A DNA stretch of 48,066 nucleotides from a virus: positions 1 through 48,066 of IMG/VR virus record IMGVR_UViG_3300033148_003903; one strand, 5' to 3'. The translations under genes and the position numbers were made by a program. Below the pieces are notes generated by a model that had not been told where the DNA came from, did no database searches, and saw only the letters and a list, made by a program, of their open reading frames with translations. Positions 20,371-42,495 of this stretch are shown one piece after another. Every line of letters begins with the position of its first letter. Position 1 is the stretch's first letter.

Positions 20371-22680
20371 ATGAGACGTTTATTTCTATTACTGTTTCTT
20401 CTACTGCTGCTTTCCGCGGCCCCCGCCTATGGGGCAATAACGAACACTGTGGTTGGCGTCAAGCCTACGGCGTATTGGCTGGAAGGCGATCCTATCAAGG
20501 ACACTGCCTTGCTGTGGATGCGTGAAACCGAAACGCTGATCGAGGCAATGACTCTCGAAGACGGCGACACTATCACCTTTGCCACGAACGCCGGTACTTT
20601 CGGCCAGTCGGCGAACAACGTCTTTACGTGGACGGAAACTCCGTCTGCTTTGGAAGATCTATCGCTGACCTTTGCGGCAAACGCCGTTGCGTGGTCGAGT
20701 AGTTCCGGTGTTGTCAATATGGACTTCGGGACTATTATAGTCGGCCTCGATAAGATTAGCGTTAACGGGGTTGAGTACACCTGGCCGACTGCCGATAGTT
20801 CCGCCGGTTATCAGCTTACCACTAACGGTAGCGGCGTTCTAAGTTGGGCCGTTGCCGGGGCAGGCACATTCACCGGCGGCGCTATTACCGGCGACATTAC
20901 AATAGCCGATACGAAGCGTATTTTGTCTCACGGCACGGCCACCGATTACGCGGCGATTGAGGCTTACGATACCGGAGTTGGCTACATTAACGTCCTGAAA
21001 TGGACAGACGCGGCCACGCCAGAAGTGTTGTTAGGCCACGCAGACGCGAGTTTTCAGCTTGCCAGTACAGGCGTTGACATTTCGACTGCCGGGGCGATTT
21101 CGAGTGTAACAGACTTGACTGCCTCCGGGACCGTCGATGCCGGAACGGTAACAACGGGAATTCTTACCACGACCGGAGTTATCACACTCGGCAATAACAC
21201 GGCGGCCCTGTCAATTGCCTCTACGGGGCTTGACTTGTCCAGTGCCGGGGCTTTGTCAAATGTTACCGACATTACCATGACAGGCGATGTCGTAATGGCA
21301 AACGGAAAAGGTATCAAGGCCAGTACCACGACCGCGCAGACGGTCGGCGTATATGGGTATGATGTTGGAACTGGCTATGTCGGGGCGCTCGTCGTTACGA
21401 ATAGCGCAACCCCAGCTACCGTCCTTGGCAGTACGTCCGGGACAACGGAAATCTCATCGTCTGACTGGACGATTTCCACTGCTGGTAATGCGGCAAACCT
21501 CGGAACCATCGGCTCTGACGGTCTGTTTACCTGTACCGGAGGTCAAACGTTGTCCGGCACGGTCAGTATCAATGACACGGCCACTACCTCGACCACCAGC
21601 ATTGGCGGTGGAACCACAACCGGAACCATCACAATCGGCGGTACTGGAACACAGGCCCTTAATATTGGCAACGGTGCAGGTATTAAGACGGTGGCACTTG
21701 GATCCCACACTACAAGCTCTACCACTACGATACTCGGCGGTTCCAACGGCGTTAATATCAATGTCGGAACCTATGACGATCCAACCAACATCAACACCGG
21801 CCTGAACACCGGCACGGTAACGATTGGCGGGACCGGGGCAATGACAATTGCTATTGGCGATGGTGGAACCGGAGCTAAGATTGTATCCCTCGGCGATAGT
21901 GTTGGGGCCAGTTCTTTGACGCTTAACGCCGGAACTGGCGATATTGACATCGACTCCGCAGATGCCCTGACCGTGGATACTGTCGGGATTATGGGAGTTA
22001 CCGTTGGCGGCACGTACACACTAACGGCCACCGGCGAGTACCTTCTCGATACTACAGTCGGTATGACTATCGATAGTGCTCAAGAGGCTGCCGATGCTAT
22101 TTCGATTACAGCGTCAGGCACGGCGGGCGGTATTACCCTCAATGCCGGTTCTGCCGGAATCACCTGTTCCGATGACTCTATCGCCAATATAGGCGACATC
22201 TCTTGTGATGACATTGTCGATGACACGGACGATGATATTATGTACATGCTGAAGACCATCGTTCAAACTATTGATTTAGACGATGATGCCTCAACCGATG
22301 ATTTCACATTCGATGATGATGCTGCCGATTCTACCGCCCAAAATGTTGACTTGGGCGAGTTGATTCCGGCATTTGCCGAAGTAGTGTCGGTTCATCTTCG
22401 TTGCTTTGAGTCAGTTGGTGCGGGTACTTTCCAAGTAACCCTTGGAATTACTTCCGCCGCAAACGACCTCTTGGCGCAGACTACCATAGACGGTGCCGGC
22501 GAAGCTGATGGTACAGCGACGGGTGCTGGTCCGAAACTGGAAACGAGCGCCTCTGCTCGTCATATTTGGGTTCAGGGTGACCCCAGTGGTAACTGGAGTG
22601 ACGCTGGCGATGCCGGTCGTTGGACAGTTATGGTGTCCTACATTGACTATGGGGCTGCCCATACGCAGAACAATCCGTAA
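20371..22680 (+). CDS. Signal-peptide-bearing fibre-like structural protein
   Basis: The 769-residue product begins MRRLFLLLFLLLLLSAAPAYG, an unmistakable Sec signal with a cut likely after AYG or AYGA. The rest is low-complexity beta repeats rich in Thr, Gly and Ser (TIGGTGTQALNIGNG and similar) ending in a globular domain with WVQGDPSGNWSDAGD. The repeats resemble trimeric phage fibre shafts. Position between cement protein and tail genes suggests a head or tail appendage. A signal peptide on such a protein is unusual. Confidence 0.7.
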   Translation: MRRLFLLLFLLLLLSAAPAYGAITNTVVGVKPTAYWLEGDPIKDTALLWMRETETLIEAMTLEDGDTITFATNAGTFGQSANNVFTWTETPSALEDLSLTFAANAVAWSSSSGVVNMDFGTIIVGLDKISVNGVEYTWPTADSSAGYQLTTNGSGVLSWAVAGAGTFTGGAITGDITIADTKRILSHGTATDYAAIEAYDTGVGYINVLKWTDAATPEVLLGHADASFQLASTGVDISTAGAISSVTDLTASGTVDAGTVTTGILTTTGVITLGNNTAALSIASTGLDLSSAGALSNVTDITMTGDVVMANGKGIKASTTTAQTVGVYGYDVGTGYVGALVVTNSATPATVLGSTSGTTEISSSDWTISTAGNAANLGTIGSDGLFTCTGGQTLSGTVSINDTATTSTTSIGGGTTTGTITIGGTGTQALNIGNGAGIKTVALGSHTTSSTTTILGGSNGVNINVGTYDDPTNINTGLNTGTVTIGGTGAMTIAIGDGGTGAKIVSLGDSVGASSLTLNAGTGDIDIDSADALTVDTVGIMGVTVGGTYTLTATGEYLLDTTVGMTIDSAQEAADAISITASGTAGGITLNAGSAGITCSDDSIANIGDISCDDIVDDTDDDIMYMLKTIVQTIDLDDDASTDDFTFDDDAADSTAQNVDLGELIPAFAEVVSVHLRCFESVGAGTFQVTLGITSAANDLLAQTTIDGAGEADGTATGAGPKLETSASARHIWVQGDPSGNWSDAGDAGRWTVMVSYIDYGAAHTQNNP

Positions 22681-23332: not shown

Positions 23333-26300
23333 ATGAAAAAGCTGATACTGGCAATAATATTGGCGGTTACAGTCCCGGTGTACGCAGGTCCGGCCCGGAC
23401 TCTCCGTGATTCACGGGCTCTGCACTTCACGAATACCGTTACTACGCTCACGGCAGGTGACGCGACGCCCTCGGTGCTGAATCGCTTTATCGTAAAGACG
23501 GCGAATACGAGTTCGACGACTATTACCGACTTCGACGACGGCAGTACCGGCCAGCCGCTCTGGCTGATTATCGGCGACGGCGATACGACTATCGATTTCA
23601 GTAGTACGAACCTCAAGGGCAACGGCGGGGCCGACTATTCGGCGACGGAGAACGATTTATGGCTGTTCGTTTACGACGGCACATACTGGTACGGCTCGTA
23701 TCTCGGCGCTATAATCACGCACGAACAAGGGGGCCTGGAGGCGGACGTGAGCGGCTATTCGGGGCTGCTGGCTATTTCGGGCGGGTCAACGTCGGAGGTG
23801 GACGCCCTAAGCGAACTGAACGCCCAGATAGCCGATGTGACGACGTTTGTGGTCGAGAGTACGGCATGTTCCAATATCGAGGGTACTGGCCTGGCGATTA
23901 CGGCCGGCACGCTCAACTGGACAGCCGCCTCGACGGATCTGTCCGATACAGCGGCCCTGCTCTACGAAACCGAGCTTGACGACTTCTCCGAACTCCAGAC
24001 GCAGATCGGTAATAAGACATTAGTGAATGAGGAGGACGCAGTAGGATGGGACGCTCTGAACACGTTTAATCTTGGCGTTACTATTACGACCGGCGACCCG
24101 TTCACGTTGGGCACAACGCGCTGGGACGACGGCTCCGATAAGATGAACGGCGAGTACATTGCCGACAATACGATAGACAATGACAGTATCGACTGGGCCG
24201 ATATGACGGATTTAACGACGGACGGTGCGGTATCGTGGGGCAATTTAGGCTCAGGCGAGCTTGCGAACGGCATGGTAGTCTTGGCCGACATTGCTTCGGC
24301 GGCCTACGCCAAAGACTTAGTAACTACCTCGCCGGTTACGGGCGGAACGAATAATATCTTAGTTGGGGCCGAAGGCGATGTAACCGTAGCCCTTGATTTT
24401 ACAACGGCCTGGACGTGGACGGGCAACTGCATTGCCAACGGCAACCTGTCGGTCGGCAATGGCACGACGACGGCGGGGGTGTTGACGCTGCTCGAAGATG
24501 ACAACGACGGCTCTAATTTTGCATCGTTCATGGTCCCCGCTCTTGGGGCCAATACGGTCTATACCTTACCGCCCGATGATGGCGATAACGGCGAGCAGTT
24601 GCAGACCAACGGCTCCGGCACTTTAACGTGGGAGGCGGCGGCAAGTTCGAGCGGTGGCGACAGCTTCACATTCACAGACGAAGATGCTGCGCCTGATGCT
24701 GCCGGAATGTTGAAATATGATAACACCGTTGCTAATTGGGACGATGGCGCTTTGTGCTGGTACGACGACGACGAAGTAAAGTATCTTGTAGATTTAGCGA
24801 CTCTACCGACGGATGACGACTATGTAGTCGCCTACGACGCCGACATCGACAAATTCTACATGAAGGTCGATGATGATACGGGCGGAAATACCGCATACGA
24901 CGATATAGGCGATCCCGACGCCGCAGGCTCTATCAGTTTCGACGACAATGAAACGGCCACTTACGCTTTCGCTCAGGACTCGGCGGGAACCTGTTTTCTT
25001 ATCGAAAATACGGATGCAACGGTGAGCAATATCGTCTATCTTCTGGAGCTTCAACATTCCGACGACGGTGAGACCAAAGCCGATTTCTTCAAGTGTACCG
25101 ATAATAACGGCGATGTAAAGTTCAATATCCAAGAGGAGGGTAATACGAGTATCGACGGATTCCTGAGCGTTGGCGTGGACTCTCATCATACAATCAACGT
25201 CAACGCAGTGACTAAAGAGATTCAGTTCGGGATTCACGGCGACGATGTAGCGAACGAATACGTGAGCTATTTCGACAGGGCCTCGGACACGCACTCGCCG
25301 ACGATGATTATTGCCAGGGCGCACGGCACGCACGCTGTGCCAACGGTAGTGGCCGACGATAGCATGTTGGGCCAGATAGGTATGATGGGTTGGGACGGTG
25401 TTGATATGGCGTTTGGGGCAAGGTTCTTCGCCCGCGTACACGGCACGCCCGGCCCGAACGATATGCCGACCGAGCTTGTTATGGCGGTAGCCGCCGACGG
25501 GGCTTCTACGGCAACGGAGCAGGTAACGCTTTACGACGGTGTTTTCGGCCCGATTACTACTAACGATATTGATTTAGGGACGTCCAGCCTTCAGTTCAAG
25601 GACGGCTATTTCGACGGCACGGTCTATACCGATGACCTGACTGTAGGGGCCTCAGCGGCAATGTCAGAAGTTGATATGGAGAAGCTGGACGGCATTACCA
25701 ACGGCACGGCTGCGGCGAGCAAGGCCGTTATTCTCGACGCCAGTAAGAACATTGCCACTATCGGTACGATAGGCTGTAGCACAATAACAACGTCCGGCAA
25801 CCCGCACATTGACGGTTCTGACCCGTCCATAGAGTTCGACGAGACAGACGGGACAGACTGGGAGCTTCGCGTTGACGATACCGGCAACAGTTTTGAGATA
25901 GCGTCGTCGATAGCCGCTGTAGGCGATAACGTCGAATTGGAGATAGACGAGGACGGCGATATTCACGTAACCGGCGACGTTTACGTAACCGGCGACGACT
26001 TGTTTATGAATACGAATACCGACAAATTCATACTGGTTGCCGACGGTACAAACTTCAATCCGGTCGAGAGCACTGGGGACGTCATTATAGACAATACCGG
26101 GGCGGCGACTATTCAGCCAGGCTCGATAGACCAGGCCCACTTTGCAGTTGATGTTATCGGCGTTGACGAGATGGAGGACGTTGACCACGGAGCGGTCGTA
26201 TGGAGCGGTGGGGTAGCAAAAGTACAGACTATCCTGATTACTGACAATGAGAGCACCGACGAGAACAATGTTATCCTCTTTGCAGCCAATGCGGACGAGG

Positions 26301-27529
26301 ACGGTAATGATGTAGGCGAAATCGAATCAGACGGCACTCTTTACTACAATCCGAACTCAGGGACGGTATTTACTACGGAGTTCTCCGGGGGCGGTGCGGG
26401 TCTAACGGCGATAGACGGTGGGAATATCACCAATGATACGATAGACAATAATAGTATCGACTGGGCCGATATGACGGATTTAACGACGGACGGCGCGGTA
26501 TCGTGGGGCAATATAGCCGAAGGCGAATTAGCTGACGCTATTATCGTCGATGCCGATATTAAGGACAATGTGATTCAGGAACCGGCCTTGAATACGACAA
26601 ACGCTGCCGGTGCGGGCGAGGATAATTACGTTCTCAGCTACAATCACGCCGGTACGAACTTCACTTGGATAGCTGCCGGGGCTGGTGATATGCTCAAGGC
26701 TACCTACGATTCAGGTGTCTCAGGCGGCGTCGATATGCTTACGACGGTCGATAGCACCTACGCCAGCGACTACGTTCTCCTGACGGGAACGGCGGTGGGA
26801 ACGGCGGCCCCCAAGACAGACGGGGCCCTGACATACGACGCTACGAGCGGCACGCTGGCCGCTACGGAGTTCTCAGGCGGCGGCTCCGGCCTGACCCTTG
26901 CCTCTACCGATTTGAGCGATACAGCGGCCCTGCTCTACGAAACCGAACTTGACGACCTCTCGGAGTTGACTACTCAGATAGCTGACGTTTCGACGTTCAT
27001 AACCGACGATATTATGCCGGACGCCGGGACTGACCCTACTGTTAACGCTGCCGGTGAGTTGTCCGTGGATACGGATGGGGCAAATGAAGCGAATGATGTA
27101 ACTTTACGCACATTTGAAGGCAATAGAGAAATGGCTTTAGCTCAGGCCCTAAAAACAATCACTATGTCTATTGTCAGTCCCGATGAGATAAATGTATGGA
27201 CTGGACGAGTCAACCCCAGTCAGCCCGTATGGTTTAATACGAGCGGTATGGCATTTACGATTACGGAAGTCTATGCGATTTCAGACACGGACAATTATGA
27301 CTTTACATTGTTTGAGTCGTCATCGGCGACTGATATGTCCGATGACAACGATACTTCAATTATAGCCATCCAGTGTGACGCCGACGGCACGGAATGTTTC
27401 ACCGATTCAGAGACGGGTATCAACCATATAATTGAACATGACCACGCAATAATCTTTGAGGATACACTCGGTTCAGCCGAAGGTATTCTCATAACAATAT
27501 CAGGTTGGTTTAACGCAGACGTAAATTAA
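23333..27529 (+). CDS. Giant signal-peptide-bearing fibre-like protein
   Basis: The 1398-residue product begins MKKLILAIILAVTVPVYAG, a clear Sec signal. The body is an Asp, Thr and Gly-rich fibre with internal duplications. SIDWADMTDLTTDGAVSWGN occurs twice (DNA 24168-24244 and 26436-26512, almost identical), as does DTAALLYETELDD (about 23946 and 26920). A C-terminal domain (about residues 1255-1398) is different and probably globular. It is likely the major virion appendage; receptor binding is possible but not shown. Confidence 0.7.
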   Translation: MKKLILAIILAVTVPVYAGPARTLRDSRALHFTNTVTTLTAGDATPSVLNRFIVKTANTSSTTITDFDDGSTGQPLWLIIGDGDTTIDFSSTNLKGNGGADYSATENDLWLFVYDGTYWYGSYLGAIITHEQGGLEADVSGYSGLLAISGGSTSEVDALSELNAQIADVTTFVVESTACSNIEGTGLAITAGTLNWTAASTDLSDTAALLYETELDDFSELQTQIGNKTLVNEEDAVGWDALNTFNLGVTITTGDPFTLGTTRWDDGSDKMNGEYIADNTIDNDSIDWADMTDLTTDGAVSWGNLGSGELANGMVVLADIASAAYAKDLVTTSPVTGGTNNILVGAEGDVTVALDFTTAWTWTGNCIANGNLSVGNGTTTAGVLTLLEDDNDGSNFASFMVPALGANTVYTLPPDDGDNGEQLQTNGSGTLTWEAAASSSGGDSFTFTDEDAAPDAAGMLKYDNTVANWDDGALCWYDDDEVKYLVDLATLPTDDDYVVAYDADIDKFYMKVDDDTGGNTAYDDIGDPDAAGSISFDDNETATYAFAQDSAGTCFLIENTDATVSNIVYLLELQHSDDGETKADFFKCTDNNGDVKFNIQEEGNTSIDGFLSVGVDSHHTINVNAVTKEIQFGIHGDDVANEYVSYFDRASDTHSPTMIIARAHGTHAVPTVVADDSMLGQIGMMGWDGVDMAFGARFFARVHGTPGPNDMPTELVMAVAADGASTATEQVTLYDGVFGPITTNDIDLGTSSLQFKDGYFDGTVYTDDLTVGASAAMSEVDMEKLDGITNGTAAASKAVILDASKNIATIGTIGCSTITTSGNPHIDGSDPSIEFDETDGTDWELRVDDTGNSFEIASSIAAVGDNVELEIDEDGDIHVTGDVYVTGDDLFMNTNTDKFILVADGTNFNPVESTGDVIIDNTGAATIQPGSIDQAHFAVDVIGVDEMEDVDHGAVVWSGGVAKVQTILITDNESTDENNVILFAANADEDGNDVGEIESDGTLYYNPNSGTVFTTEFSGGGAGLTAIDGGNITNDTIDNNSIDWADMTDLTTDGAVSWGNIAEGELADAIIVDADIKDNVIQEPALNTTNAAGAGEDNYVLSYNHAGTNFTWIAAGAGDMLKATYDSGVSGGVDMLTTVDSTYASDYVLLTGTAVGTAAPKTDGALTYDATSGTLAATEFSGGGSGLTLASTDLSDTAALLYETELDDLSELTTQIADVSTFITDDIMPDAGTDPTVNAAGELSVDTDGANEANDVTLRTFEGNREMALAQALKTITMSIVSPDEINVWTGRVNPSQPVWFNTSGMAFTITEVYAISDTDNYDFTLFESSSATDMSDDNDTSIIAIQCDADGTECFTDSETGINHIIEHDHAIIFEDTLGSAEGILITISGWFNADVN
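24168..24244 (+). repeat. 77-bp internal duplication, copy 1
   Basis: Nearly identical to 26436-26512, with only a few mismatches, within the same large fibre gene. It suggests recent domain duplication or gene conversion. Confidence 0.8.
26436..26512 (+). repeat. 77-bp internal duplication, copy 2
   Basis: Pairs with 24168-24244. Both encode the stretch around SIDWADMTDLTTDGAVSWGN. Confidence 0.8.
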
Positions 27530-27831: not shown

Positions 27832-28536
27832 ATGAAAATCAAAATGATTGCTCTATGGTGTTTGGCGGTTCTCGCCGGGTGTCTCGTTATCGTCACCCCG
27901 GTAATAGCGGCGGACTATACGAAATCACAAGGCGAGTTGATGGATTGGACGTTAATTCCGCTCAAAACCACTGCTGGCACATTGTCCAGCATTGAAACGG
28001 GAGTTTTAGATTCAGGAGAGGGCTTGGATGCGTCGGTAACGGCGACATTGCATGTTACAATCGCGCACACAGACGCGAACGCTCTTACGGCAAACTCTGC
28101 GGGCTTCGTCGTATTGATACGGGTAGGTGCAACAGACGAATTTTGGCGGCATTACATAACGCTGTACGCCACTGGTGGCACAGCTAACGTAGGTGACTGC
28201 GATGCAGAAAGCGCTGGAGCCCAAGTAAATGTGTATGTCACGGCAACTACGAACTTTGAAGTAGCCGGGGATGTATATTTTCTTCACGATGCGGACAGTA
28301 TGGTTGCTTCCTGCCTGATAGTCAATGGTGGGTATAAAGACGACGACTATATTATGCACGTTGATAATCTCGTAAACACCTATGATGCCGCTGACAATGT
28401 TTACGACATAGTTGACCAATGGCCAATTACTCTGCCATCCTCGGTACAGGCGGCGAAGATTATCTTTTTCAATAATGATGCCGATTGTGATTTGGCGGGG
28501 AGAGTCGATTACACCTTGAATACGGACATAGAATGA
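27832..28536 (+). CDS. Secreted-type virion-region protein
   Basis: The 234-residue product begins MKIKMIALWCLAVLAGCLVI and continues to PVIAADY, a long signal peptide cut after VIAA; LAGC resembles a lipobox, so a lipoprotein is possible. The mature part is a beta-rich domain. ATG 27832 is preferred to 27826 because GGAG lies seven bases away. It overlaps the next signal-bearing gene. Confidence 0.6.
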   Translation: MKIKMIALWCLAVLAGCLVIVTPVIAADYTKSQGELMDWTLIPLKTTAGTLSSIETGVLDSGEGLDASVTATLHVTIAHTDANALTANSAGFVVLIRVGATDEFWRHYITLYATGGTANVGDCDAESAGAQVNVYVTATTNFEVAGDVYFLHDADSMVASCLIVNGGYKDDDYIMHVDNLVNTYDAADNVYDIVDQWPITLPSSVQAAKIIFFNNDADCDLAGRVDYTLNTDIE

Positions 28537-29357
28537 AACGCCTACTGCTAATATTCTGTTTATGCGCCGTGGCTTTTGCCGGTAACTTTCACCAGAAGCC
28601 CATGCTCGGCGTACCTCTTGCGTATGAGCAGTCGTCGTCTAAAGGTCTCGTCGCTTGCTGGCTGATGAACGAAAACGCTGGGGAGATTGTCCGGGATGTG
28701 AGTCTTAATAATTATGTTGGTACAATGCAAATCGCTGGTTGGCGAGCAAGTCAAGCTGGGATGGGCGTACAGTTGGTCGCGAGCAATGATGATTTCATAC
28801 AGCATGTGTCCTCTGGCAGTATTCTACCGGGTGGGTGGGGGCCATATACTTTAGTTTGGCGAGGTGTTCTTCCGGTACGTCAGTCAACCACACTTATATT
28901 ATTTGGTATCGGAGATACAGGATTATCAACAAGGGCTAACACAGTTTATCAATCCAGCACTGCTGATTACCGCTTTGGTTTTAGCTGTTTTGGCAACGGC
29001 AGTAGCACCGTTACAACTGGTTTTGGTGGAGGTGTTATCTCACTGGTTCTCGTTTGGGAATCAGCTACCAGTCGTAAACTGTATCTGAATGGCGAGTTGC
29101 TAATTACAGACACAGATAGCGTTACTCCATCGGGTACGCCAAATGTAATAACATGTGGCTGTGTACCGCGTAATAACACTACAACTAATAACTCTGACCA
29201 GGATGTAAGTTCTTATTATGTTTACAATCGTGCCCTCTCCGCCTCGGAAGTTGCACAGCTATATCGAGAGCCGTTCCGGTCGTTCCGCAGGGAGATGATT
29301 TTATCGGTCGAGGAAGCGGCGGTAACGGCCGCCCAAGTAATAATAATCAATATGTGA
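28533..29357 (+). CDS. LamG / ConA-like lectin domain protein with signal peptide
   Basis: The 274-residue product begins MKRLLLIFCLCAVAFAGN, a Sec signal, followed by a concanavalin-A-like lectin domain: LVACWLMNENAG, VRDVSLNNYVG, SRKLYLNGELL and the hallmark YVYNRALSASEVAQLY. LamG domains bind glycans. In a phage this could mark host-surface recognition or a virion decoration. The ATGA overlap with the previous gene indicates coupled translation. Confidence 0.75.
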   Translation: MKRLLLIFCLCAVAFAGNFHQKPMLGVPLAYEQSSSKGLVACWLMNENAGEIVRDVSLNNYVGTMQIAGWRASQAGMGVQLVASNDDFIQHVSSGSILPGGWGPYTLVWRGVLPVRQSTTLILFGIGDTGLSTRANTVYQSSTADYRFGFSCFGNGSSTVTTGFGGGVISLVLVWESATSRKLYLNGELLITDTDSVTPSGTPNVITCGCVPRNNTTTNNSDQDVSSYYVYNRALSASEVAQLYREPFRSFRREMILSVEEAAVTAAQVIIINM

Positions 29358-29364: not shown

Positions 29365-30324
29365 ATGAGTGACGAAATACAATTAGTCGGCTACCCTTCG
29401 GGTGCTACCTTATATGCGATTGTTCGCAATCCGGCCGGGCAGGTGTGGTATCCGTTCGGCGAAGCATTTGAGGACTGGGGCGGCGGAGTGTCGAGGACTG
29501 CCAACGACTATTCGATCCCTATGACGGACAAAAAAGGGTCGTTTTACGTAGCTGATTTCCCATCCGATATTGACGCTGCCGATGAGCCCTATCCGATCCA
29601 GATTCACTTGCAAGGCAGCAGTGCTCCGGTTGATAACGAGCCTGTCGTCGGTGAGCAGGGCATTATATGGACGGGAACCAGTGTCGCCGTTGCCGCCGTT
29701 GCAGAATTGGGAGCGACGGAAATTTGTAATATGGCACTTGCGAGAATAGGCGGGGGCGATGAAGAGGAGAGCATTGTTTCGATTGGCCAGGTATCGAAGA
29801 CAGCGGCCTGGTGTCGGCGGTTTTATTCCCATTGCCGGGACTATGTTCTCAAGAGAGCGAATTTCCATGAGGCATCTTCCTATGGCGACTTGGGTGCGGC
29901 CCTGACTGGTAGCAGTATTCCGGAGGCGGCGGAGTGGGAATACGTATTCAACCTGCCGAGCGATTACGTGGCAATGATGAAGCAGACGAGTGAAGATGAC
30001 CATGAGCAGGCTTACAACTATCGGATTTCACAGGGCAAACTCTTTACGAACGACCTGACGAATTCTGACGAGGACTCGGCCTACATCGAGTACATTGCCA
30101 GGAACGTCGATGCCAGCACGTACGGACCTACTCTGGTCGAGGCGATAGTTGTTTTCTTAGCATCTAAGCTGGCCGGTCCTATCGCCAAGAACGATCAATG
30201 GGGCCAATCGCTACTACAGGAATTCGAGACTGTCGCTCTACCGAACGCCAAGGCCCGGAACCAGGCCGATGTCGCCGATCCGGGCGAAAAAGGAGAAACT
30301 TCGTGGCTAAACGCGCGTGGCTAA
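29365..30324 (+). CDS. Tail tubular protein A-like (gp11-like), with extra N-terminal domain
   Basis: The 319-residue product has a C-terminal tail-tube domain: ATEICNMALARIGGG, then TAAWCRRFYSHCRDYVLKRA, ending in helices with FLASKLAGPIAKND. This is the T7 gp11 (adaptor) family. About 115 N-terminal residues (NPAGQVWYPFGEAFEDW, GSFYVADFPSDI) form a separate beta domain known from other phage structural proteins. It overlaps the gp12-like start by 22 bases. Confidence 0.8.
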   Translation: MSDEIQLVGYPSGATLYAIVRNPAGQVWYPFGEAFEDWGGGVSRTANDYSIPMTDKKGSFYVADFPSDIDAADEPYPIQIHLQGSSAPVDNEPVVGEQGIIWTGTSVAVAAVAELGATEICNMALARIGGGDEEESIVSIGQVSKTAAWCRRFYSHCRDYVLKRANFHEASSYGDLGAALTGSSIPEAAEWEYVFNLPSDYVAMMKQTSEDDHEQAYNYRISQGKLFTNDLTNSDEDSAYIEYIARNVDASTYGPTLVEAIVVFLASKLAGPIAKNDQWGQSLLQEFETVALPNAKARNQADVADPGEKGETSWLNARG

Positions 30325-32846: not shown

Positions 32847-32848
32847 AG

Positions 32849-33208
32849 TTGATAATTCAACCGCAACAGTTTCATCCGCAAGATGCGATCCAGTTGACCG
32901 GCTGCACGCCCGAACAGGCGGCGTTCAATCAGGCGACCGGCCCGGCGTATAGTTTCTTCGACGGCGACGAACTTCTGGCCTGCGGCGGGGCTCGGACATA
33001 CGGGGTTGGAGAGGCATGGCTGATGGTATCGGAGAAGGTTAGGGGCGAGATGAAAAAGACCCTGATAGAGACTACCGCTCATGTTATCGATAAGATCGTG
33101 CGGGAACAGAGTTTATGGCGATTATGGGCGAATACGGACAGGAGTGAGAATTTCCTGCGTCATATAGGATTCAAGAAGGTCGATGCCTTCAAATGGGAGG
33201 CTAAATAA
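32849..33208 (+). CDS. GNAT-like internal virion protein A-like
   Basis: The 119-residue product resembles an acetyltransferase-fold (GNAT) protein (LLACGGARTYGVGEAWLMVSE, then SENFLRHIGFKKV). Proteins of this size and position are the gp13-like ejection accessory of T7-type phages. TTG 32849 is preferred, five bases after AGGTGG, though GTG 32840 is possible. It would be involved in virion assembly rather than in acetylation. Confidence 0.65.
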   Translation: MIIQPQQFHPQDAIQLTGCTPEQAAFNQATGPAYSFFDGDELLACGGARTYGVGEAWLMVSEKVRGEMKKTLIETTAHVIDKIVREQSLWRLWANTDRSENFLRHIGFKKVDAFKWEAK

Positions 33209-33723
33209 TGGAAGTAGTGGCAAGTAGCGTGGTAGCGGCGGCTAAGGGCGCGGCCGCTGCACCAATATCAACGGGAATGACTGTAGCGGGTTTGGGCATG
33301 ACGGCCATGGGCCAAATGAGGGCCGGACGTGACGAGGAGGCGGCTTTCAAGCAGAGGGCCGCTATGCTCGAGGCACAGTCGGCAGAGGAGTTGAGGGCAG
33401 GCAGGGAGCGTGGCAGGCTCACCAGGAGCGAAGGCCGCCGCCTAACGGCCCGACAGAAGGTCTTGGCGGCCAAAGGCGGCGTTAAGAGCTTTACGGGCGC
33501 GCCCTTATTGGTTCAGGTAGAGACTCTTGCCGAAATCGAGCATGAGGCCGCTATTCTTCAAGCAGAGGGCGGTATCAGTAGTCAGCAGCTACTCTCTCAG
33601 GCCGAGTACGAGAAGCGGACAGGCCGCCGTCGCCGAAAGGCGGGGGTATTCGCGGCCGGAACGTCGTTATTGACCGGCGGAGGTCTATTGTACGGCTCGT
33701 TAAGAAAGCGGGGCATGGCATAA
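33208..33723 (+). CDS. Internal virion protein B-like (gp14-like)
   Basis: The 171-residue product has an N-terminal Ala and Gly-rich membrane-active segment, a charged helix (REERGRLTRSEGRR-type) and TARQKVLAAKGGVKSFTGAP followed by LLVQVETLAEIEHEA, as in gp14-like ejection proteins. The C-terminus has a second hydrophobic stretch (GVFAAGTSLLTGGG). It would form the outer-membrane part of the ejection channel. Confidence 0.7.
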   Translation: MEVVASSVVAAAKGAAAAPISTGMTVAGLGMTAMGQMRAGRDEEAAFKQRAAMLEAQSAEELRAGRERGRLTRSEGRRLTARQKVLAAKGGVKSFTGAPLLVQVETLAEIEHEAAILQAEGGISSQQLLSQAEYEKRTGRRRRKAGVFAAGTSLLTGGGLLYGSLRKRGMA

Positions 33724-33724
33724 T

Positions 33725-35527
33725 ATGGCAAGATTACCAGGATTCGTAAGCAGGAGAGTAAGATCGGCCCGCGTAGGCGACTTGCCGGACCCCCGCCCGA
33801 TCGAGGCTGGCCAGACGGGTAGAGGCATAGCCGGGGCCGGGGCTGGGATTGCCGGGATAGGATTGCAGGGTATCGCGGACGCCACGGAAATCCAGGAAAA
33901 GATCAATATTACCGATACTAACCGTGAGATTGCCAACGTCAGCGGGTTTATCAACGCCCAAGTGAACGGGATGCAGGAATTCGTCGCACAGAACGACGAT
34001 TACACTTTGTACCCGAAGGAATGGGAAGGTCGCTTGAAAGCCATCCAGGAGGCGATAGCAAATGTCAGTAGCTCAGATGCAAGAGAGTCTTTACAGAACG
34101 CCTTTGCCAAGAACAAGGCGGGCTATCAATCCTATGTAACGAGGTCGATTAACCTGGGCAAGGTGGAGCGGGCGGACGCCGACGGTCGAGCCAATATGGC
34201 TAATATCATCGGCGCTGATTATTCCGTCGAGACTGAGGCGATAAATGCACGGAGGGCAGTTGAAGCCGGGAAAGCGGGCGTCGAACCTCTTACTCAAGCC
34301 GAAGTTAAGATGCAGCGGATCGACGACATCATAGCGGCCAACGTATCGACGAACGTTTGGGATAGAGTAACTGCCGGTAAGTTTAGGGCTGCGGCGATTG
34401 AAGGTATTACGGCTGTTGACGATAAACACGTAGCGAATGTTCTTTTGGGTATTGGAGCATCCGCAAAACATCAAGAGGGTCCAAATGCAGGTCTTATTGA
34501 TTTAGATGAAGGTATCGACAACATTAACGCAACCGATGCAACGCCCCTACAGAAACAGGATGCAATTAAGAACCTTGAATTGCAATGGGCCGACGAGCGG
34601 CGAGGCCGGGCGGTTCAAATTGAAAAGGATGAGAATGCGACCAGAGACGCTATCAATAAGGCCCAATTCGCAGGCGATCTTACAGTAATGCAGAATCTTA
34701 TCGAGAACGGTATCGAAGGTGTCGGAATCCTTCCTGAAACAGAGCAGGGCGTATTACTCCGAGCTATCAGAGCCGACTTGGACGCAATAGAAAAGGGCGT
34801 TGCCATAGAGACGGATTGGCGAAGTTATGAGAAGGTTCGGCGATTAGTCGATCCGTTGGCCAACGGCGATAAGACATACGACGAAGTAATGGCCGTCTAT
34901 TACGAGGAATCGAAGAATTTAGGGCGGCAGGAACGCAAAGAGCTTATGGAGAAACTGATTACCGCCGCAGAGACTAAAGCTAAGGCCGAGCCGACTAACC
35001 CCGAAGACCAGCGGATACGCAAGGCGATAAGCGAATTCGAGACAAATAACCTGTTCGTAATGTCAGACGACGAAGTACGCGAAATGTTGGATGAGGAGCA
35101 GTATAGAACCTACGAGAATTGGGACGATGAACAGCAGGCTAATTTCCTCGAAAATGAGTCGGTCAAGAAGGAAGTCGAAATGCTAAACGATTACGACCAA
35201 TGGCTCGCCGAACAGAAGACTCCGCCGACTATCGAGCAGAAAGAGGCGTGGCTTGATGATATTACAAAAGTGCCGAAAACTAAACAGGCTAAGAGTTTTT
35301 TCCGGAAGGTCGCTACTTCTGGTTTTAATTTATTATTTGGGCAATCTCAGTTTGAGCAAGGGGAATTTACGGGTTTTGGCGTCGAGATACCACGGGGCGA
35401 CGAACCGCAACTTGGCCCTATTGATACCGGGCGAGTGACTGTAGTTGATAAGGACGGAAACAAATTCACACTGCCGAAGAATCAATTGGAAGAAGCTGAA
35501 GCTCAGGGATTCACACTTATAAAATGA
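33725..35527 (+). CDS. Internal virion protein C-like (gp15-like)
   Basis: The 600-residue product is helical throughout and has an N-terminal Gly and Ala-rich stretch (GRGIAGAGAGIAGIG). No enzyme motif is seen. It lies between the gp14-like and gp16-like genes, as gp15 does. It overlaps the next gene by ATGA. It would form the ejection tube crossing the periplasm. Confidence 0.7.
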   Translation: MARLPGFVSRRVRSARVGDLPDPRPIEAGQTGRGIAGAGAGIAGIGLQGIADATEIQEKINITDTNREIANVSGFINAQVNGMQEFVAQNDDYTLYPKEWEGRLKAIQEAIANVSSSDARESLQNAFAKNKAGYQSYVTRSINLGKVERADADGRANMANIIGADYSVETEAINARRAVEAGKAGVEPLTQAEVKMQRIDDIIAANVSTNVWDRVTAGKFRAAAIEGITAVDDKHVANVLLGIGASAKHQEGPNAGLIDLDEGIDNINATDATPLQKQDAIKNLELQWADERRGRAVQIEKDENATRDAINKAQFAGDLTVMQNLIENGIEGVGILPETEQGVLLRAIRADLDAIEKGVAIETDWRSYEKVRRLVDPLANGDKTYDEVMAVYYEESKNLGRQERKELMEKLITAAETKAKAEPTNPEDQRIRKAISEFETNNLFVMSDDEVREMLDEEQYRTYENWDDEQQANFLENESVKKEVEMLNDYDQWLAEQKTPPTIEQKEAWLDDITKVPKTKQAKSFFRKVATSGFNLLFGQSQFEQGEFTGFGVEIPRGDEPQLGPIDTGRVTVVDKDGNKFTLPKNQLEEAEAQGFTLIK

Positions 35528-38500
35528 CACTTGACCTGATACCAGTAAAAGAACCCCGGAAACGAGAACTGGATTTAGTTCCCGTAATAGAGCCTATCAC
35601 GGAACAAGAGGACGCTCTATTTTCCGGTGATATTGAGATTGGCGAATTCCCCGGCTGGCCCTTGACTGGCATTGTAGGGAACGAAGAAATCGCTGCCAAC
35701 TCATCCGCCGCTCTGTACTACAATAGGAATTACGGCGTCCCTCATCCGCAGGCGTTTGACTTGGTGCGTGAATTTGAAATGCTGCATTTCGGGCAGGAAA
35801 TACCCGCCGCTACGGCGTGGGAACGAATCAAGCAAAGCTACCGAAACGGCAAGGCTAATACGCAGGCTAATGATTTAGGTTATCAGATAGCAGTCGATTC
35901 ATTTACCGACCCGGAAGCCTACGAGAAGAACCTCGACCAACTTACTAAACTATGGTCTGGGATTACGCCGGACTATTGGGAACAGAATCGTAGTTTACTC
36001 GAAAGGTTCGCTGCCGGAGGAGGCGAACAGATTCCACATCAGCTACAAGCGGCTAAAAATGCCGGTAAATATGGCATGGTAGGTGCTATTATAGGTGGCT
36101 TGGCGGGTTTTTCTGTTGGCGGGCCTGCTGGCGGTGCTGCCGGTTTCAAACTCGCAGGCGGGGCAGGTGCGGCTTTTGGTGCTTTCGATAGGATGCGTAA
36201 ACTCGAAACGGGCGGCATAATGCTTTCCATGATGGATGTCGAGGACGAGTTCGGTAATAAAATGGACCCGAAATTGGCCGCCGCCGCCTCCCATATTGCC
36301 GGTACATTCAATGGTGCTGTCGAGATAGCTGAGTTCGCTACTCTATTATCGGCCTTTGGTATCGGCACGAAAGTCTTTGAGAACGCAGCAGCGAAGGTAA
36401 CGTCTTCCTTATTGGCTAAGGGCACATTCGCTGAAATAGCCGCCAAGCACGTCTTGAAGTTCGGTGCGATTATGGCTACCGAGCAGGCCCAGGAATTCGT
36501 ACAGGAAACGTCGGGTGTATTTGCAGAGGAGCTTGCCAAGCAAATCAATAATGACAGGGCGGGAACGGAATTCAAGCCGATTACTGGGGCCGAACTGCTC
36601 GCTCAATATAAGGAAATAGCCGAAAAGACATTTTTCGCCGTAGGCGGTTTGGCGGGCGTCGGCACATCCTTTACGTTCATGCAACAAGTTTTGGCCCCAC
36701 AGACTATCGTAGAGCCTGAAGTTGCACCGGAAAAGGCCGTAGAAAAACCCGCCGAGGCCCCCGTCGTTGAAAAGCCTGCCGAAGCCGCAGTATCGCCTGA
36801 ATTTGAGGCCGAGGAGGCTGAACTGGACGAAATACGCGCCAGGGCGACTAAGAGGCGTGCCGAGAGGGCCGCTAAGCCCCCTGCCGTTGCCAAGCCGACC
36901 GTAACACCCCCCGCCGTCAAAGCCGCCCCAGCAGCCGCACAGAAACCTACAGTGCCACCGCAGCCCACAAGACAGGAATTAACGGCCCGCAAAGCAGAAC
37001 TAAGGCAAAAAATCCTCGATGCTGAGACTGAAGGACGCTCATTTGACTTGATTCTAAAGCGCCCACTCAAGGCCCAACGCTTTGCAATCGGTGAGTTGGG
37101 GGCCATTGAACGGCAATTAGGCAAAAAGAAGCCTCCAGCAGCCGCACAGGAGGCCGTAGAGGGGAAGGTAGACACACGCACTTACGAAGACAAGATACGC
37201 GATTTGCCAGAGGGCGACACAGATGCGGCAATGGATATATACACTAAGCATGTTGACGAGGCGGCTGGTGCTCTCATAAGCAAAATAAAAGACCAACCTT
37301 GGGTAGAAGATGTGTACTCAGTTTGGGGGTCAACTACCTCTCATTACTTGACGGTCGAAGATACAGACGGCGATCAATTCGTTTTAAGAATTAGCGACCA
37401 CGATACCGTCTATAGTGCAGATGGTGTTGTAAATGCAGAGAACTCTATTGCAGATATTGTTGATGTTGGTTTGTACCTAATTAGTAAGTATTACGATAAG
37501 GCTCTCAGCCAGCTCCCCGCCCCCAAGGCAGAGGGGAAGAAAGCGTTTGAAATGACGTTGCTGGAATTTGGGAAAAGCAAGTTATCACCAGAACAGGCTG
37601 CTCACATTACTAAAACCCAGCAAGTTAAGAGTTTCTATCCACAACACCGAAAAGAAATTACGGCAGCGATAGAACGCGGCGATACCGTGCCTTTGCGAGT
37701 CCTCAAGGAGTTCAAGGGTGAAAAGTTCGCTGATGAGATTCTTGATAAGGGCAAGTTGCCTGGCGGCAGGCAGGCGGGCGGCACAATCTTATTCGACCCG
37801 GACGAATGGGCTGATATGATAAGAGCGGCGGATATTTACTTCAAGCGTGGGGCGCAGACGTTGGCCGAACTCGCCGATAAATTAGTAGCTGATTTCGGAG
37901 AGGAAATAAGGCAGGCTATACCGGAGTTACTGGAGCAGGTTAAAGGCAAGAAAAAAACACCCAACAAGAAGAAACCAAAAAAAACTCCGAAGTCACCTAT
38001 CCCTAAAATCAGCAAAGAACAATTAACACCACCTGAAGTAAGAAAAGAAATTGCAACTAAAATCAAAAGTGAAATTCCGGAATCCGACATTGCAACACAA
38101 GATGCAGTGAACGTAATGGAGGCATATTGGAAGGAGTTTGATGAACGTGAATTGGAAATAAATGTGGCAACGATAAAGAATCAGGAAGCTATTGCAAACG
38201 CTCTTGGTAAAACACAATACTTACCTGAGAGTAATCCTGAAGTTGCTAATACCTCTCGTGCGATGATGTTGTACATTGACCTAAAAGAACATCCGGCTGG
38301 TCATAATTTTGTAGATAAGTTATCAGAGCAGCAGACGCAGTTGTACAATTTGTCACAAGATTTACCTGCCAACATACGCAAAATAGCAGATGGAATAATA
38401 CGGCAAAATAAGAAGTTTGGTGAGATGGCAGTCAATGAGGAAGTTATTGCAAACGCCAGAGAGAATTACATAGCGCACTTATGGCAGAAACCTGTTAAGC

Positions 38501-40173
38501 AAGAAGCGTTACGTGCTCGTTTCCGGCAAACAACCGCCAGGGCAAAGCAAAGAACTATTGAAGGCGGTATAGTAGAGGGGCTTTCGCGCGGTAAAAAACT
38601 CAGAGTTGACGATGTTACGTTAGCTACCCAAATAGCTCAGTCGCAAATCAATCAAGCATTGGTTGGAAAGCGACTGTTGACTTTAGGCAAGGATTGGGGC
38701 TTATTGTCTCATAAACAGCTTGAAGATTGGGTACAGGTTGAACACCCAGGATTTACTACTTGGAAATGGGCAGGAAAGGCGGATCAAGCAAAAACGTATG
38801 GCAGGAACTTCTTCGTAACAGAGGAAGGCAATCTAATGGAGCGAATACCTGTTTATGCCGAACCCAAATTAGGGAAAGTGCTTAATAACGTATTTACACC
38901 TTCTGCTTTATACAAAATTCCAGGTGTCAAGACCGTGTCGAGGTATAACGCTCAAATAAAATCCACCATTTTGTTTACAAGCCTTTATCATCATCAAGCG
39001 TACATGAGAAGCTATGCTTTCGGCAGTAGAGGACTGAACCCCAAAAAGGCTTATGATTTAGGCAGGCAAGCTATAATGAATATGACGCCGGAAGTGCGTC
39101 TATTGGTGCGAAACGGCTTAACGATTGGACGCATACAGGACTATGATCCGCGCATGATAGAAGGTGAACAAACTATTTGGGGGAGAGCATTATCATCTAC
39201 AAAGCCAACGGAGGCTATAAGGAAGAAACTTGTTGCATTGAGAAAGAGGCAGGAACGGTTTTTGTTCAATAAAATGGGACCGGCTCTGAAAATGCAGGCT
39301 GGGCTTTTGGAATTAAGGGCTGAATTAAAGAGAAATCAGGCCGAATTAGAGGCGGGCAATATAACTGCGGATGAGATTGCTGTTGCAGTAGCCAATTTGA
39401 TAAACAATGATTTTGGTGGTTTGCATTTGGGGCGTATGGGTAGAAGTCAAACAGCACAGCATTTATTTAGGCTTCTTGCACTTGCCCCTGACTGGACGGA
39501 ATCAAATATTCGTTCGGCAGTTGACGCATTTAGGGGAGGCGAAACAGGGTACTTGCATAGAATGTTCTGGGGTAGAATAGCAGCAAAGGGTTTGGGGGCG
39601 ACTATCCTTTTTAATTTATTGCTGGCCTCATTTGACGACGAGGATTTCGTAGAGAGATATAAAAAGGCATGGAAAACCGGTCGATTGCGATGGTTGGATG
39701 TTGATATAACCCCCATCTACAAGGCATTAGGTGGTGATACGGATGCACGAAAATACTTTTCTTTAATTGGTCATTTTCGAGATCCAGTTAAATTTATTGC
39801 TCATCCATTTATTTCAGCAAAGCATAAAGGAAGTGTATTGTCCAGAATTATGTTGGATATGATGATAGGGCAAGATTGGGCAGGCCGGGAATTTACTACG
39901 ATTGGAGAATTAGCGGGAATAACAGAAGATGGTAAGCGTTCTGGCCGCCTTGTAAAATATGAAAGAGGCGGCGCACGGCCAATAGATCCATCGCAAATTC
40001 CATCTTATGCTTTATATCAGGTTAGGTCGGCAATGCCTATACCAATGCAAAATCTGATAGCCTTTATGGGTGGCGAAATGGATGCTTTCGATGCTATTAC
40101 CAAAAGTGCAGGGTTAATGACAGCTACAACATATCCTAAAGAAACGACAAAACTAAAAGGACTGAGTAGATAG
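35524..40173 (+). CDS. Giant internal virion protein D-like (gp16-like)
   Basis: The 1549-residue product has helices and hydrophobic Gly-rich segments (residues about 175-225), an Ala, Pro and Lys linker (about 398-480), and a region with GDQFVLRISDHDTVYS like polyvalent-protein domains. A lysine and proline linker follows (about 808-825), then a C-terminal region with ALAPDWTESNIRSAV. The DNA from about 38000 on is clearly AT-richer than the rest. No lytic transglycosylase motif is evident at the N-terminus. It would be ejected with the DNA. Confidence 0.7.
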   Translation: MTLDLIPVKEPRKRELDLVPVIEPITEQEDALFSGDIEIGEFPGWPLTGIVGNEEIAANSSAALYYNRNYGVPHPQAFDLVREFEMLHFGQEIPAATAWERIKQSYRNGKANTQANDLGYQIAVDSFTDPEAYEKNLDQLTKLWSGITPDYWEQNRSLLERFAAGGGEQIPHQLQAAKNAGKYGMVGAIIGGLAGFSVGGPAGGAAGFKLAGGAGAAFGAFDRMRKLETGGIMLSMMDVEDEFGNKMDPKLAAAASHIAGTFNGAVEIAEFATLLSAFGIGTKVFENAAAKVTSSLLAKGTFAEIAAKHVLKFGAIMATEQAQEFVQETSGVFAEELAKQINNDRAGTEFKPITGAELLAQYKEIAEKTFFAVGGLAGVGTSFTFMQQVLAPQTIVEPEVAPEKAVEKPAEAPVVEKPAEAAVSPEFEAEEAELDEIRARATKRRAERAAKPPAVAKPTVTPPAVKAAPAAAQKPTVPPQPTRQELTARKAELRQKILDAETEGRSFDLILKRPLKAQRFAIGELGAIERQLGKKKPPAAAQEAVEGKVDTRTYEDKIRDLPEGDTDAAMDIYTKHVDEAAGALISKIKDQPWVEDVYSVWGSTTSHYLTVEDTDGDQFVLRISDHDTVYSADGVVNAENSIADIVDVGLYLISKYYDKALSQLPAPKAEGKKAFEMTLLEFGKSKLSPEQAAHITKTQQVKSFYPQHRKEITAAIERGDTVPLRVLKEFKGEKFADEILDKGKLPGGRQAGGTILFDPDEWADMIRAADIYFKRGAQTLAELADKLVADFGEEIRQAIPELLEQVKGKKKTPNKKKPKKTPKSPIPKISKEQLTPPEVRKEIATKIKSEIPESDIATQDAVNVMEAYWKEFDERELEINVATIKNQEAIANALGKTQYLPESNPEVANTSRAMMLYIDLKEHPAGHNFVDKLSEQQTQLYNLSQDLPANIRKIADGIIRQNKKFGEMAVNEEVIANARENYIAHLWQKPVKQEALRARFRQTTARAKQRTIEGGIVEGLSRGKKLRVDDVTLATQIAQSQINQALVGKRLLTLGKDWGLLSHKQLEDWVQVEHPGFTTWKWAGKADQAKTYGRNFFVTEEGNLMERIPVYAEPKLGKVLNNVFTPSALYKIPGVKTVSRYNAQIKSTILFTSLYHHQAYMRSYAFGSRGLNPKKAYDLGRQAIMNMTPEVRLLVRNGLTIGRIQDYDPRMIEGEQTIWGRALSSTKPTEAIRKKLVALRKRQERFLFNKMGPALKMQAGLLELRAELKRNQAELEAGNITADEIAVAVANLINNDFGGLHLGRMGRSQTAQHLFRLLALAPDWTESNIRSAVDAFRGGETGYLHRMFWGRIAAKGLGATILFNLLLASFDDEDFVERYKKAWKTGRLRWLDVDITPIYKALGGDTDARKYFSLIGHFRDPVKFIAHPFISAKHKGSVLSRIMLDMMIGQDWAGREFTTIGELAGITEDGKRSGRLVKYERGGARPIDPSQIPSYALYQVRSAMPIPMQNLIAFMGGEMDAFDAITKSAGLMTATTYPKETTKLKGLSR

Positions 40174-40182
40174 GAGCCTCAA

Positions 40183-42495
40183 ATGAAACGGGCACTGATA
40201 GTATTACTGTTAATCGCAGGTTACGTAGGGGCGGCGACGTTCTGGCATATCACAACTTTATCGACTGGCGTTGTATCGAGTCAATATGAACCGGAGCGGT
40301 TCGCGGCCAACGGCAGCACAACGACATTCGCGTTCTCTTTCCCATTGGGAGCGACTACGGATTTAGAGGTCTATCTGGTTGTGGATGCTACGGGCGTCGG
40401 TACTGAACTGACTTTGACTACGGACTATTCCCTGTCGTTCACGAATAATAACCTGTCGAAGGGCGGTACGATAACTACTGTCGATACATACGATTCCGGT
40501 TATACGATAGTGGCTATAAGGAATACGGCCAAGACCCAGACTGCGAACTTTATAAGGGGCCAGGACATACCGGAGGAAACTCTTGAAGGCATTTTGGACC
40601 GACAGACAATGTCCATTCAAGACCTCTGGGTTGCCCAAGATAGATCGCCTCACGCCCCAGCAACAGACGACGATCCTGATATGGAGCTTCCAAACGCTAT
40701 TGATCGGGCGAGTAAGTATCTCGCATTCGATGCCGCTGGCGATGCAATAGCGTCGTCCGGGCCGACCGGCGACAGCTCCATACCAGTAAGCTCTTTTATG
40801 GAGACCGTTCTGGACGATACCGATGGCGAATCGGTTATGACTACATTGGGCGGCGTTTACGTTTACAACGTCCAGACGTTCGGTGCTACGGGCGACGGCA
40901 GTACCGACGATACGGTTGCGATGAACTTGGCGACGACTACCGCGAATAGCGACGGCGGCGGGACCGTGTACGTGCCCAAAGGCACTTACAAATTGACAAG
41001 CTCCCTAATCCTCCACAGTAACACAACTCTATGGATGGACCCGAACGCAGTCCTATTGAGAAACTTCGCGGGCGCCGCCGCCGTTGCCGGATATTCGGCG
41101 AAGAATGGAACGATTCGGAACGCTACTCTCGACGTGAGCGATCCCGATACGAACATTACCATTATCGGCGGCCAGATAGTCTCGGACAACGTTTCCTACG
41201 TCGGCAACCATTTAATGATGTGGGGCGTCGATAACTTTCGCATGGAAGGGACGCGGGTGCGTCAGGCATACGGGAACGACCAGGGCCTCATCTATCGAGG
41301 CAATAACGCCGTATTCTCAAACTTGAATATAGACGTTATCAGCGTCACTGATACCGAAGCGACTCCAAACGACGGGCTGCATATAGCGTCCGGGTCGAAT
41401 ATACGAGTCACCAACTGTTATATTAAAGCCGAAGATGATTCAATCGCCCTGGCCAATTACAACGACGACGGCAACTCGGCAATTACCGATGTGGTGATTT
41501 CCAACTGCATCTTCGTTTCCAATCGCAATAATATCAAAATCTCACACGCCTGGAACGTAACCAATATTCATCAGCGAATTGCTATAACCAACTGCATCGG
41601 CTACCAGTTAGGCGGCGGCGGAGAACACCTCTGCCAGAACCTTACAATCCTGCCCGAAGAAAGCAGCGACGACAGTAAGATTAAGCACGTAGTGGTAAGT
41701 AACTGCATCTTTCACCAGGCGGCCTTCGACGAATGGGCCTCGTACAATGCCCACGGAGTATTCGTAAAGGGCAGCGATAACGTACTGCTCGATAATGTGT
41801 GGGTAATAGCACCTAACCGGACGGGATTCTGGATTCAGGATTGCGATAACGTCCAGATTCGAGGCGGGGGGGTGGATACTCCACGCAATAGTGGCTATCC
41901 GTGCGTTCAACTCTATACGGTCGATGACATTCTTATCGACGGTGCGTACCTGTCCACACCGACCGGGGCCCAGAACATTTTGATAAACGATGAGTGCGAT
42001 AATATAAGGATTATCAACTGCGATATTAGGGGTATAGTAAACGCCGGGTCGGGCATTGCCACTAACGCCGGCAGCACCGTCGTCGGGCTGAACATAAGAG
42101 GCAATATGTTCTCTAAAGGCTCCACTACCGCATACGGCTACCAGGCGGCGGGCACTGAATCGTATATCCTGTTCGCTGATAACGACTGCCGAGGCGTCAC
42201 GTCGGGCGTTAAGACTATCGGTGACGTGAACAGTAACCTGATGATGCGCAATAACATCGGCTATGTAACGGAAAACTCAGGCACAGACACGCTCGAAAAC
42301 AGTAAAACATCAGTGGCGGTTACGCATGGTATGAGCGAGACGCCGACTACCGTGAGTATTACGTGGGCGGAGGACCCGGCAAACGCTATTGCAGACTGGT
42401 GGGTCAGTGCAGTCGGGGCAACTACCTTTACGTTGAACGGTGCGAACCCCGGTGCAACTAATCTCGATTTCTATTGGGAAGCAAAAGTACGATAA
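40183..42495 (+). CDS. Tailspike: T7-type N-terminus with GH28-like depolymerase, signal peptide
   Basis: The 770-residue product opens with RALIVLLLIAGYVGAATF, a signal-like segment, then the T7 fibre N-terminal domain (YEPERFAANGSTTTFAFSFP, residues about 34-53). From about residue 230 a right-handed beta-helix begins (VQTFGATGDGSTDDTVAMNL, GGTVYVPKGTYKL). It holds the GH28 polygalacturonase-like motif NDGLHIASGSNIRVTNC followed by AEDDSIAL, which carries the NxD and DD catalytic acids. It probably cleaves a host surface polysaccharide. The RBS AGGAG fixes the start. Confidence 0.85.
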   Translation: MKRALIVLLLIAGYVGAATFWHITTLSTGVVSSQYEPERFAANGSTTTFAFSFPLGATTDLEVYLVVDATGVGTELTLTTDYSLSFTNNNLSKGGTITTVDTYDSGYTIVAIRNTAKTQTANFIRGQDIPEETLEGILDRQTMSIQDLWVAQDRSPHAPATDDDPDMELPNAIDRASKYLAFDAAGDAIASSGPTGDSSIPVSSFMETVLDDTDGESVMTTLGGVYVYNVQTFGATGDGSTDDTVAMNLATTTANSDGGGTVYVPKGTYKLTSSLILHSNTTLWMDPNAVLLRNFAGAAAVAGYSAKNGTIRNATLDVSDPDTNITIIGGQIVSDNVSYVGNHLMMWGVDNFRMEGTRVRQAYGNDQGLIYRGNNAVFSNLNIDVISVTDTEATPNDGLHIASGSNIRVTNCYIKAEDDSIALANYNDDGNSAITDVVISNCIFVSNRNNIKISHAWNVTNIHQRIAITNCIGYQLGGGGEHLCQNLTILPEESSDDSKIKHVVVSNCIFHQAAFDEWASYNAHGVFVKGSDNVLLDNVWVIAPNRTGFWIQDCDNVQIRGGGVDTPRNSGYPCVQLYTVDDILIDGAYLSTPTGAQNILINDECDNIRIINCDIRGIVNAGSGIATNAGSTVVGLNIRGNMFSKGSTTAYGYQAAGTESYILFADNDCRGVTSGVKTIGDVNSNLMMRNNIGYVTENSGTDTLENSKTSVAVTHGMSETPTTVSITWAEDPANAIADWWVSAVGATTFTLNGANPGATNLDFYWEAKVR

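Follow-up and report, generated by a model that had tools for sequence, protein, structure and literature searches.

The outer parts of the virion encoded by an epsilon15-like podovirus, namely the tail nozzle, the tailspike and the likely appendages, are encoded with cleavable-type Sec leaders, whereas the head, portal and adaptor proteins are not. The DNA analysed, referred to here as the window, comprises 48,066 bases and is the record of an uncultivated virus. The whole pattern is best explained if the outer appendages are exported, trimmed, and then joined to tailless, DNA-filled heads when the inner membrane opens, a reading to which we assign a probability of roughly 0.58. To our knowledge, tailed phages are taken to finish their virions in the cytoplasm ahead of lysis, and a keyword search of the open-access literature found no description of leaders on the tail parts of tailed phages, only genome papers in which SignalP had been run.

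Profile matches define an epsilon15-type module in the window, with a PF20911 capsid protein, a phrog_394 adaptor, a phrog_376 nozzle and a phrog_2234/1640 spike, and the genes for the GP7-type capsid protein, adaptor and nozzle are syntenic as expected of an epsilon15-like podovirus. Relatives of this type (Uetakevirus, Cobetia phage Carin1 and Pelagibacter phage HTVC010P) have a phrog_376-type nozzle and gp14-16-like genes in the order of the window, and the GP7-type capsid protein is common to the window, epsilon15 and Carin1. The window differs in its leaders: no signal peptide occurs among the annotated virion-region genes tested in epsilon15, Carin1 and HTVC010P, and their nozzles start right before the conserved core. 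Known members of the epsilon15-like module make their tail proteins without a signal peptide, and the window departs from them.

Leaders were scored with a home-made scorer that combines a cut-site weight matrix with charge and hydrophobicity and was trained on a hand-compiled list of 47 E. coli signal peptides; in leave-one-out trials these gave a median of 19.9, a 5th percentile of 9.5 and the exact cut in 45 of 47. The part of the virion module that lacks leaders is as follows.

15440..17155, plus strand: portal, no leader; homologous to L002, L003 and e15-type portals; score -36.6.
17988..18707, plus strand: scaffold-like protein, no leader; placed between the portal and capsid genes; score -23.5.
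18862..19872, plus strand: major capsid protein (GP7/epsilon15 type), no leader; PF20911 E 3.3e-59; score -5.1.
19888..20352, plus strand: cement-like capsid protein, no leader; aligns with the cement genes of relatives; score -17.1.
29365..30324, plus strand: adaptor (phrog_394, gp11-like), no leader; phrog_394 E 9.4e-33; score -11.3.
33208..40173, plus strand: internal/ejection proteins, no Sec leader; gp14-, gp15- and gp16-like at 33208, 33725 and 35524, assigned by position and homology.

The gp15- and gp16-like proteins score below 0, as do the capsid protein, cement, scaffold, portal and adaptor. The gp14-like protein (33208) reaches 6.9 owing to a start that is hydrophobic and uncharged, as in epsilon15 gp14. 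A GNAT acetyltransferase-like gene (32840-33208) lies between the nozzle and gp14 genes, the same place that it occupies in many relatives including epsilon15.

The leader-bearing genes and the ribosome site of the nozzle gene are listed below, with a slash marking the predicted cut.

20371..22680, plus strand: probable virion surface appendage, first gene after cement; signal peptide 20371-20433, MRRLFLLLFLLLLLSAAPAYG/AITN, score 24.7.
23333..27529, plus strand: long repetitive fibre-like protein, 1398 aa; signal peptide 23333-23386, MKKLILAIILAVTVPVYA/GPAR, score 17.3.
27832..28536, plus strand: appendage candidate, alternative start 27826; signal peptide 27832-27909, MKIKMIALWCLAVLAGCLVIVTPVIA/ADYT, score 18.8.
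28533..29357, plus strand: laminin-G/concanavalin-like appendage candidate, with a Laminin_G_3 match below its cut-off; signal peptide 28533-28580, MKRLLLIFCLCAVAFA/GNFH, score 16.2.
30291-30295, plus strand: ribosome site AGGAG of the nozzle gene.
30303..32846, plus strand: tail nozzle (phrog_376), GTG start; signal peptide 30303-30353, MAKRAWLILFLCSAVWG/QGVR, score 9.7.
40183..42495, plus strand: tailspike, pectate-lyase-like, with a phrog_2234 / phrog_1640 N-terminal domain; signal peptide 40183-40233, MKRALIVLLLIAGYVGA/ATFW, score 17.8.

The original prediction, that six genes start with Sec-type leaders, is borne out at all six N-termini, whose scores (9.7-24.7) exceed the reference maximum of 6.7 among 81 virion-region genes of epsilon15, Carin1, HTVC010P and MW202898. 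Each of the six has the positive n-region, hydrophobic h-region and small -3/-1 residues that mark Sec/signal peptidase I substrates. The same prediction had named the 30303 product a tail nozzle and the 40183 product a tailspike, and both identities stand, the former with a phrog_376 E of 2.5e-195, a core that begins at residue 25 and solved relatives 8ck1 and 9efk. The products of 20371-29357 are probably virion parts, judging from position and domain type, and for the 23333 product no PHROG or Pfam family was matched.

Ribosome sites are clear at 20371, 27832, 30303 and 40183 and weak at 23333 and 28533. That the ribosome site fixes the start at 30303 was likewise confirmed, with the GTG lying behind AGGAG and no in-frame ATG, GTG or TTG between it and the conserved core FNAGEVSP. 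Miscalled starts were ruled out, there being no usable later start codons, and a trait of one contig was ruled out by leader-bearing relatives from the collection scans. An artefact of wrong starts or chance hydrophobic N-termini would draw on a background pass rate of about 2%, as 5 of 266 shadow ORFs reach 9.7, but the probability that some 20 module genes would yield six leaders by chance is around 1e-6, and an artefact is contradicted by the ribosome sites, by the reappearance of leaders on the same proteins across many contigs and by the register match described below; we regard it as extremely improbable.

In the collection scans, at least 15 contigs have leader-bearing nozzles, against about 250 leaderless nozzle homologues. 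Besides the window these are L002, L003, L217, L291, L138, L139 (with the near-identical L140), L279, L278, L154, L195, L048, L136 and L180, together with L175, which falls just below the score line because of its long n-region and is counted as the fifteenth. The L301 nozzle is likely a sixteenth, its TTG start being uncertain, and the L113 nozzle was dropped since it scored only from a start far upstream. The first relatives recognized, L002 and L003, have nozzles 58% and 52% identical to that of the window, and both carry leaders on the nozzle and on appendages. Leaders vary more than the mature parts (25-38% versus 53-60%) but retain the charge and the hydrophobic segment, as is usual for signal peptides, and the residue at -1 is mostly small, L195 being the one of the 15 that departs from this. 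Cysteine content shows no clear difference between exported nozzles and others, and an AlphaFold model of the nozzle built from eight sequences (mean pLDDT 53) is too poor for use. L154 (6867-11095) has additional copies of the nozzle N-terminal domain, each with a separate leader, in a frame of 479 aa followed by one of 122 aa, the latter immediately ahead of the main frame of 785 aa; this is a duplication, perhaps with a frameshift.

It had been stated in advance that the leaders would be refuted if every homologue started downstream of the signal from a ribosome site of its own. Most of the distant homologues do start there; however, a ribosome-site start at the mature N-terminus occurs in 0 of the 15 leader-bearing nozzles, and the leader is therefore taken as a real, derived and recurrent addition. 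A single internal TTG, with a three-base ribosome-site match and inside the hydrophobic stretch, is present in the L278 nozzle and is the only such case among the 15. A tree of the post-leader sequence of 84 nozzles places the leader-bearing ones in three clades that lie apart from one another; its supported branches require four changes or more, in which gains are not distinguishable from losses. Leaderless nozzles occur within or beside the main leader clade, as in L218 (48% identity) and L008, both of which keep appendage leaders.

Relatives also bear on the other proteins. Where genes could be assigned to a class in leader-nozzle contigs, leaders are present on 3 of 3 spikes and 4 of 4 relatives of the 20371 product, and on 0 of 56 non-appendage proteins: portal 0/8, scaffold 0/4, capsid 0/12, cement 0/10, adaptor 0/13, terminase 0/2, GNAT 0/3, gp15 0/1 and gp16 0/3, with gp14-like proteins excluded from the count because of their hydrophobic starts. 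Leaders on other genes number 35 of 183 in leader-nozzle contigs versus 42 of 1872 elsewhere, and having at least one other leader is commoner in the former (Fisher p 9e-9, for contigs that are clustered on the tree); over phylogenetically independent pairs, which are too few, the association is not significant. In several contigs the family of the 20371 product conserves a mature N-terminal motif, PxAxWxSG...KDxAWxWM, after the leader, and 9 of 10 members of a family linked to it have leaders, as do relatives of the 23333 product in L139 and L301 and a LamG-like gene of L003 (5755). Leader-bearing spikes are present in L003, L140, L154, L278 and L340. The L340 spike (14784-17261) has a leader and the nozzle of the same contig has none, which suggests that leaders can be gained or kept gene by gene. 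Signal-like N-termini are also seen on gp14-like internal proteins of L139 (11538-12125; score 14.0, with a charged n-region) and L291 (13224-13721), and internal proteins may sometimes be part of the exported set.

Late appendage genes also begin leader-like in vir555 (BK063671) and MW202898, which differ from the window in that the nozzle and first spike are leaderless. In vir555 (L229) three or four late genes in 38140-43157 start in this way; its recorded host is Methanomicrobiales, although a bacterial host is plausible in view of an endolysin annotation. Export of the nozzle is dispensable, since the nozzles of L218, L008 and vir555 have no leader despite the leaders on their appendages.

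The register of the predicted mature ends is the strongest sequence evidence, and in our view the decisive evidence, that cleavage would restore the usual N-terminus. For spikes the register was measured from the alignment. Most leaderless spikes that have the N-terminal domain of the leader-bearing ones open with MT[IV]S..., and the stretch that leads from the post-Met position to a conserved Phe is 19 residues long in 48 of 52. When leader-bearing spikes are cut as predicted, the distance to the same Phe is 19 in L003, L140 and L340 and 20 in L154 and L278, the latter at the scorer's third-ranked site, with the first-ranked lying six residues further in. The mature L340 spike begins TISTT, which is the MTISTT start of leaderless relatives minus Met. 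The spike of the window, with 31 residues from cut to Phe, is 12 above the common register. In the nozzles, the distance from the predicted mature end to the core is 6-10 residues in 11 of 14 cases and mostly 7-10, against a mode of 9 in leaderless nozzles; random cutting would place 2.5 of 14 in this register, and 11 were reached in 0 of 20,000 trials. The L003 nozzle is in register at the scorer's second-ranked cut site. As cutting restores the leaderless register, the leaders were probably fused close to, or exactly at, the position of the initiator Met.

The register also bears on whether the hydrophobic segments stay in place. One view is that they are uncleaved membrane anchors that tether the appendages to the inner membrane, where heads would dock, or that give the virion hydrophobic tips that aid ejection. 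The stretches are long and strong, and T4 proheads assemble at membranes. Anchors had been offered as an alternative in the original prediction, but we consider them unlikely: they are not expected to keep the register found in both spikes and nozzles, in which the predicted cuts restore the N-termini of leaderless homologues, and the -1 residues are mostly small. In addition, the N-terminal strands of the T7 nozzle belong to the adaptor-facing platform (PMC6702177). Cleavage by the lipoprotein (type II) peptidase, which would leave some tail parts lipid-anchored, is suggested by a lipobox-like LAGC in the 27832 leader and an LLGC in the L003 spike, and 27832 may accordingly belong to either peptidase class. 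No lipobox with Cys at +1 is found in the other five leaders of the window, and in orthologous nozzles the -1 residue of the type I site stays small; lipid anchoring has very little probability. Export followed by signal peptidase I trimming is thus well supported as the predicted fate of the leader-bearing proteins, with leaders recurring on the same proteins in diverged phages.

Split-compartment assembly would be the most likely mechanism. Leader-bearing proteins would cross the inner membrane by Sec and be trimmed by signal peptidase I, which would leave them with the N-terminus of leaderless relatives whose initiator Met has been removed. The trimmed nozzle, spikes and fibres would then fold and remain in the periplasm during the time in which DNA is packaged into heads in the cytoplasm. 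Once the inner membrane has been opened by the holin, filled heads still lacking a tail would acquire these parts in the periplasm or immediately beyond it, and appendages that are sticky or enzymatic would thereby have been kept away from the cytoplasm. If heads and appendages join only at membrane opening, final assembly is tied to lysis. For the full form of this route, with packed heads in the cytoplasm, trimmed parts in the periplasm, joining at lysis, and more than one origin by exact leader-for-Met fusion, we would give about even odds. The earlier suggestion of assembly outside the inner membrane could hold for the last steps at most, as capsid, portal, adaptor and scaffold have no leader.

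All assembly steps of T7 are regarded as cytoplasmic, whereas the nozzle and spikes of the window would sit across the inner membrane until it opened. The tail itself can be likened to that of T7 (gp8-gp11-gp12-gp17), in which portal, adaptor, nozzle and fibres follow in sequence and the portal is in a closed state prior to tail addition (PMC6702177). The first 45 residues of the T7 nozzle contribute three strands of its platform domain, which interacts with the adaptor; the closed portal is proposed to retain DNA until the tail is added, and adaptor binding reopens it (PMC6702177). A removable leader fits this nozzle and portal anatomy. The weak point is that the adaptor of the window is leaderless, and adaptor-bound heads without a nozzle should leak, given that adaptor binding reopens the T7 portal; either the adaptor would join late too, or another stopper would be in use. 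In phage PhiM1, full capsids are reported to be dimerised via the adaptor/tail end, with nozzle and fibres not visible in the reconstruction (PMC11440229).

Two further readings concern the purpose of export and the cell in which it occurs. The exported pool might act on the host surface, in receptor masking, capsule digestion or superinfection exclusion, while virions are assembled from copies that avoid Sec and stay in the cytoplasm. The polysaccharide-cleaving fold of the window spike implies that export before lysis could clear receptors, and some relatives lack the nozzle leader; but no internal ribosome-site start at the mature end would yield a leaderless form, and no surface role is known for a nozzle. 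Such dual use, with the surface roles named, is the least improbable of the alternatives, and still unlikely. Alternatively, a host with internal membranes or an atypical envelope might use Sec to deliver proteins to the compartment in which virions are built. Leaders on the nozzle are concentrated in a few environmental clades, and among the nozzle relatives found in Thermodesulfobacteriota (two MAG contigs, and genomes of the phylum and of two classes) none has a leader. The leaderless capsid, portal and packaging proteins indicate that the head at least is made in the cytoplasm, and several changes on the nozzle tree speak against one odd host, making this quite unlikely. Weak holin-like and spanin-like matches are the sole hint in the window of a diderm host.

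Outside tailed phages, virion proteins with signal peptides are familiar from filamentous phages, whose coat proteins pIII and pVIII are inserted via Sec and lose the signal peptide before they enter the particle, and in this respect they resemble the proteins of the window. Filamentous virions, however, have no preformed head and leave by extrusion through the membrane, whereas the window encodes a leaderless icosahedral head and has leaders on outer parts only. The hallmarks of an inovirus (ssDNA genome, extrusion ATPase, helical coat and no head) do not describe the window, which has a terminase, a portal and an icosahedral capsid protein.

If split-compartment assembly is true, the last steps of virion assembly can await lysis, and exported nozzles and spikes offer a test of when and where tails meet heads. 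A signal peptide on a phage protein would also be compatible with virion membership, and annotation pipelines may therefore discard real tail parts as secreted or host-like.

Several other genes in the window deserve mention. A small holin-like membrane protein (22741-22926; phrog_9987, weak) lies among the appendage genes, apart from the other putative lysis genes at 42510-43972. A DUF6765 protein (PF20551; 43253-43972) adjoins the putative lysis genes and carries the motif HTLQDSFNHQ, which suggests a metal-dependent hydrolase and possibly a lysis enzyme. A small protein (14401-14652) has a start, MNRRTLLKSLATLPFVGG, that is similar to a twin-arginine leader.
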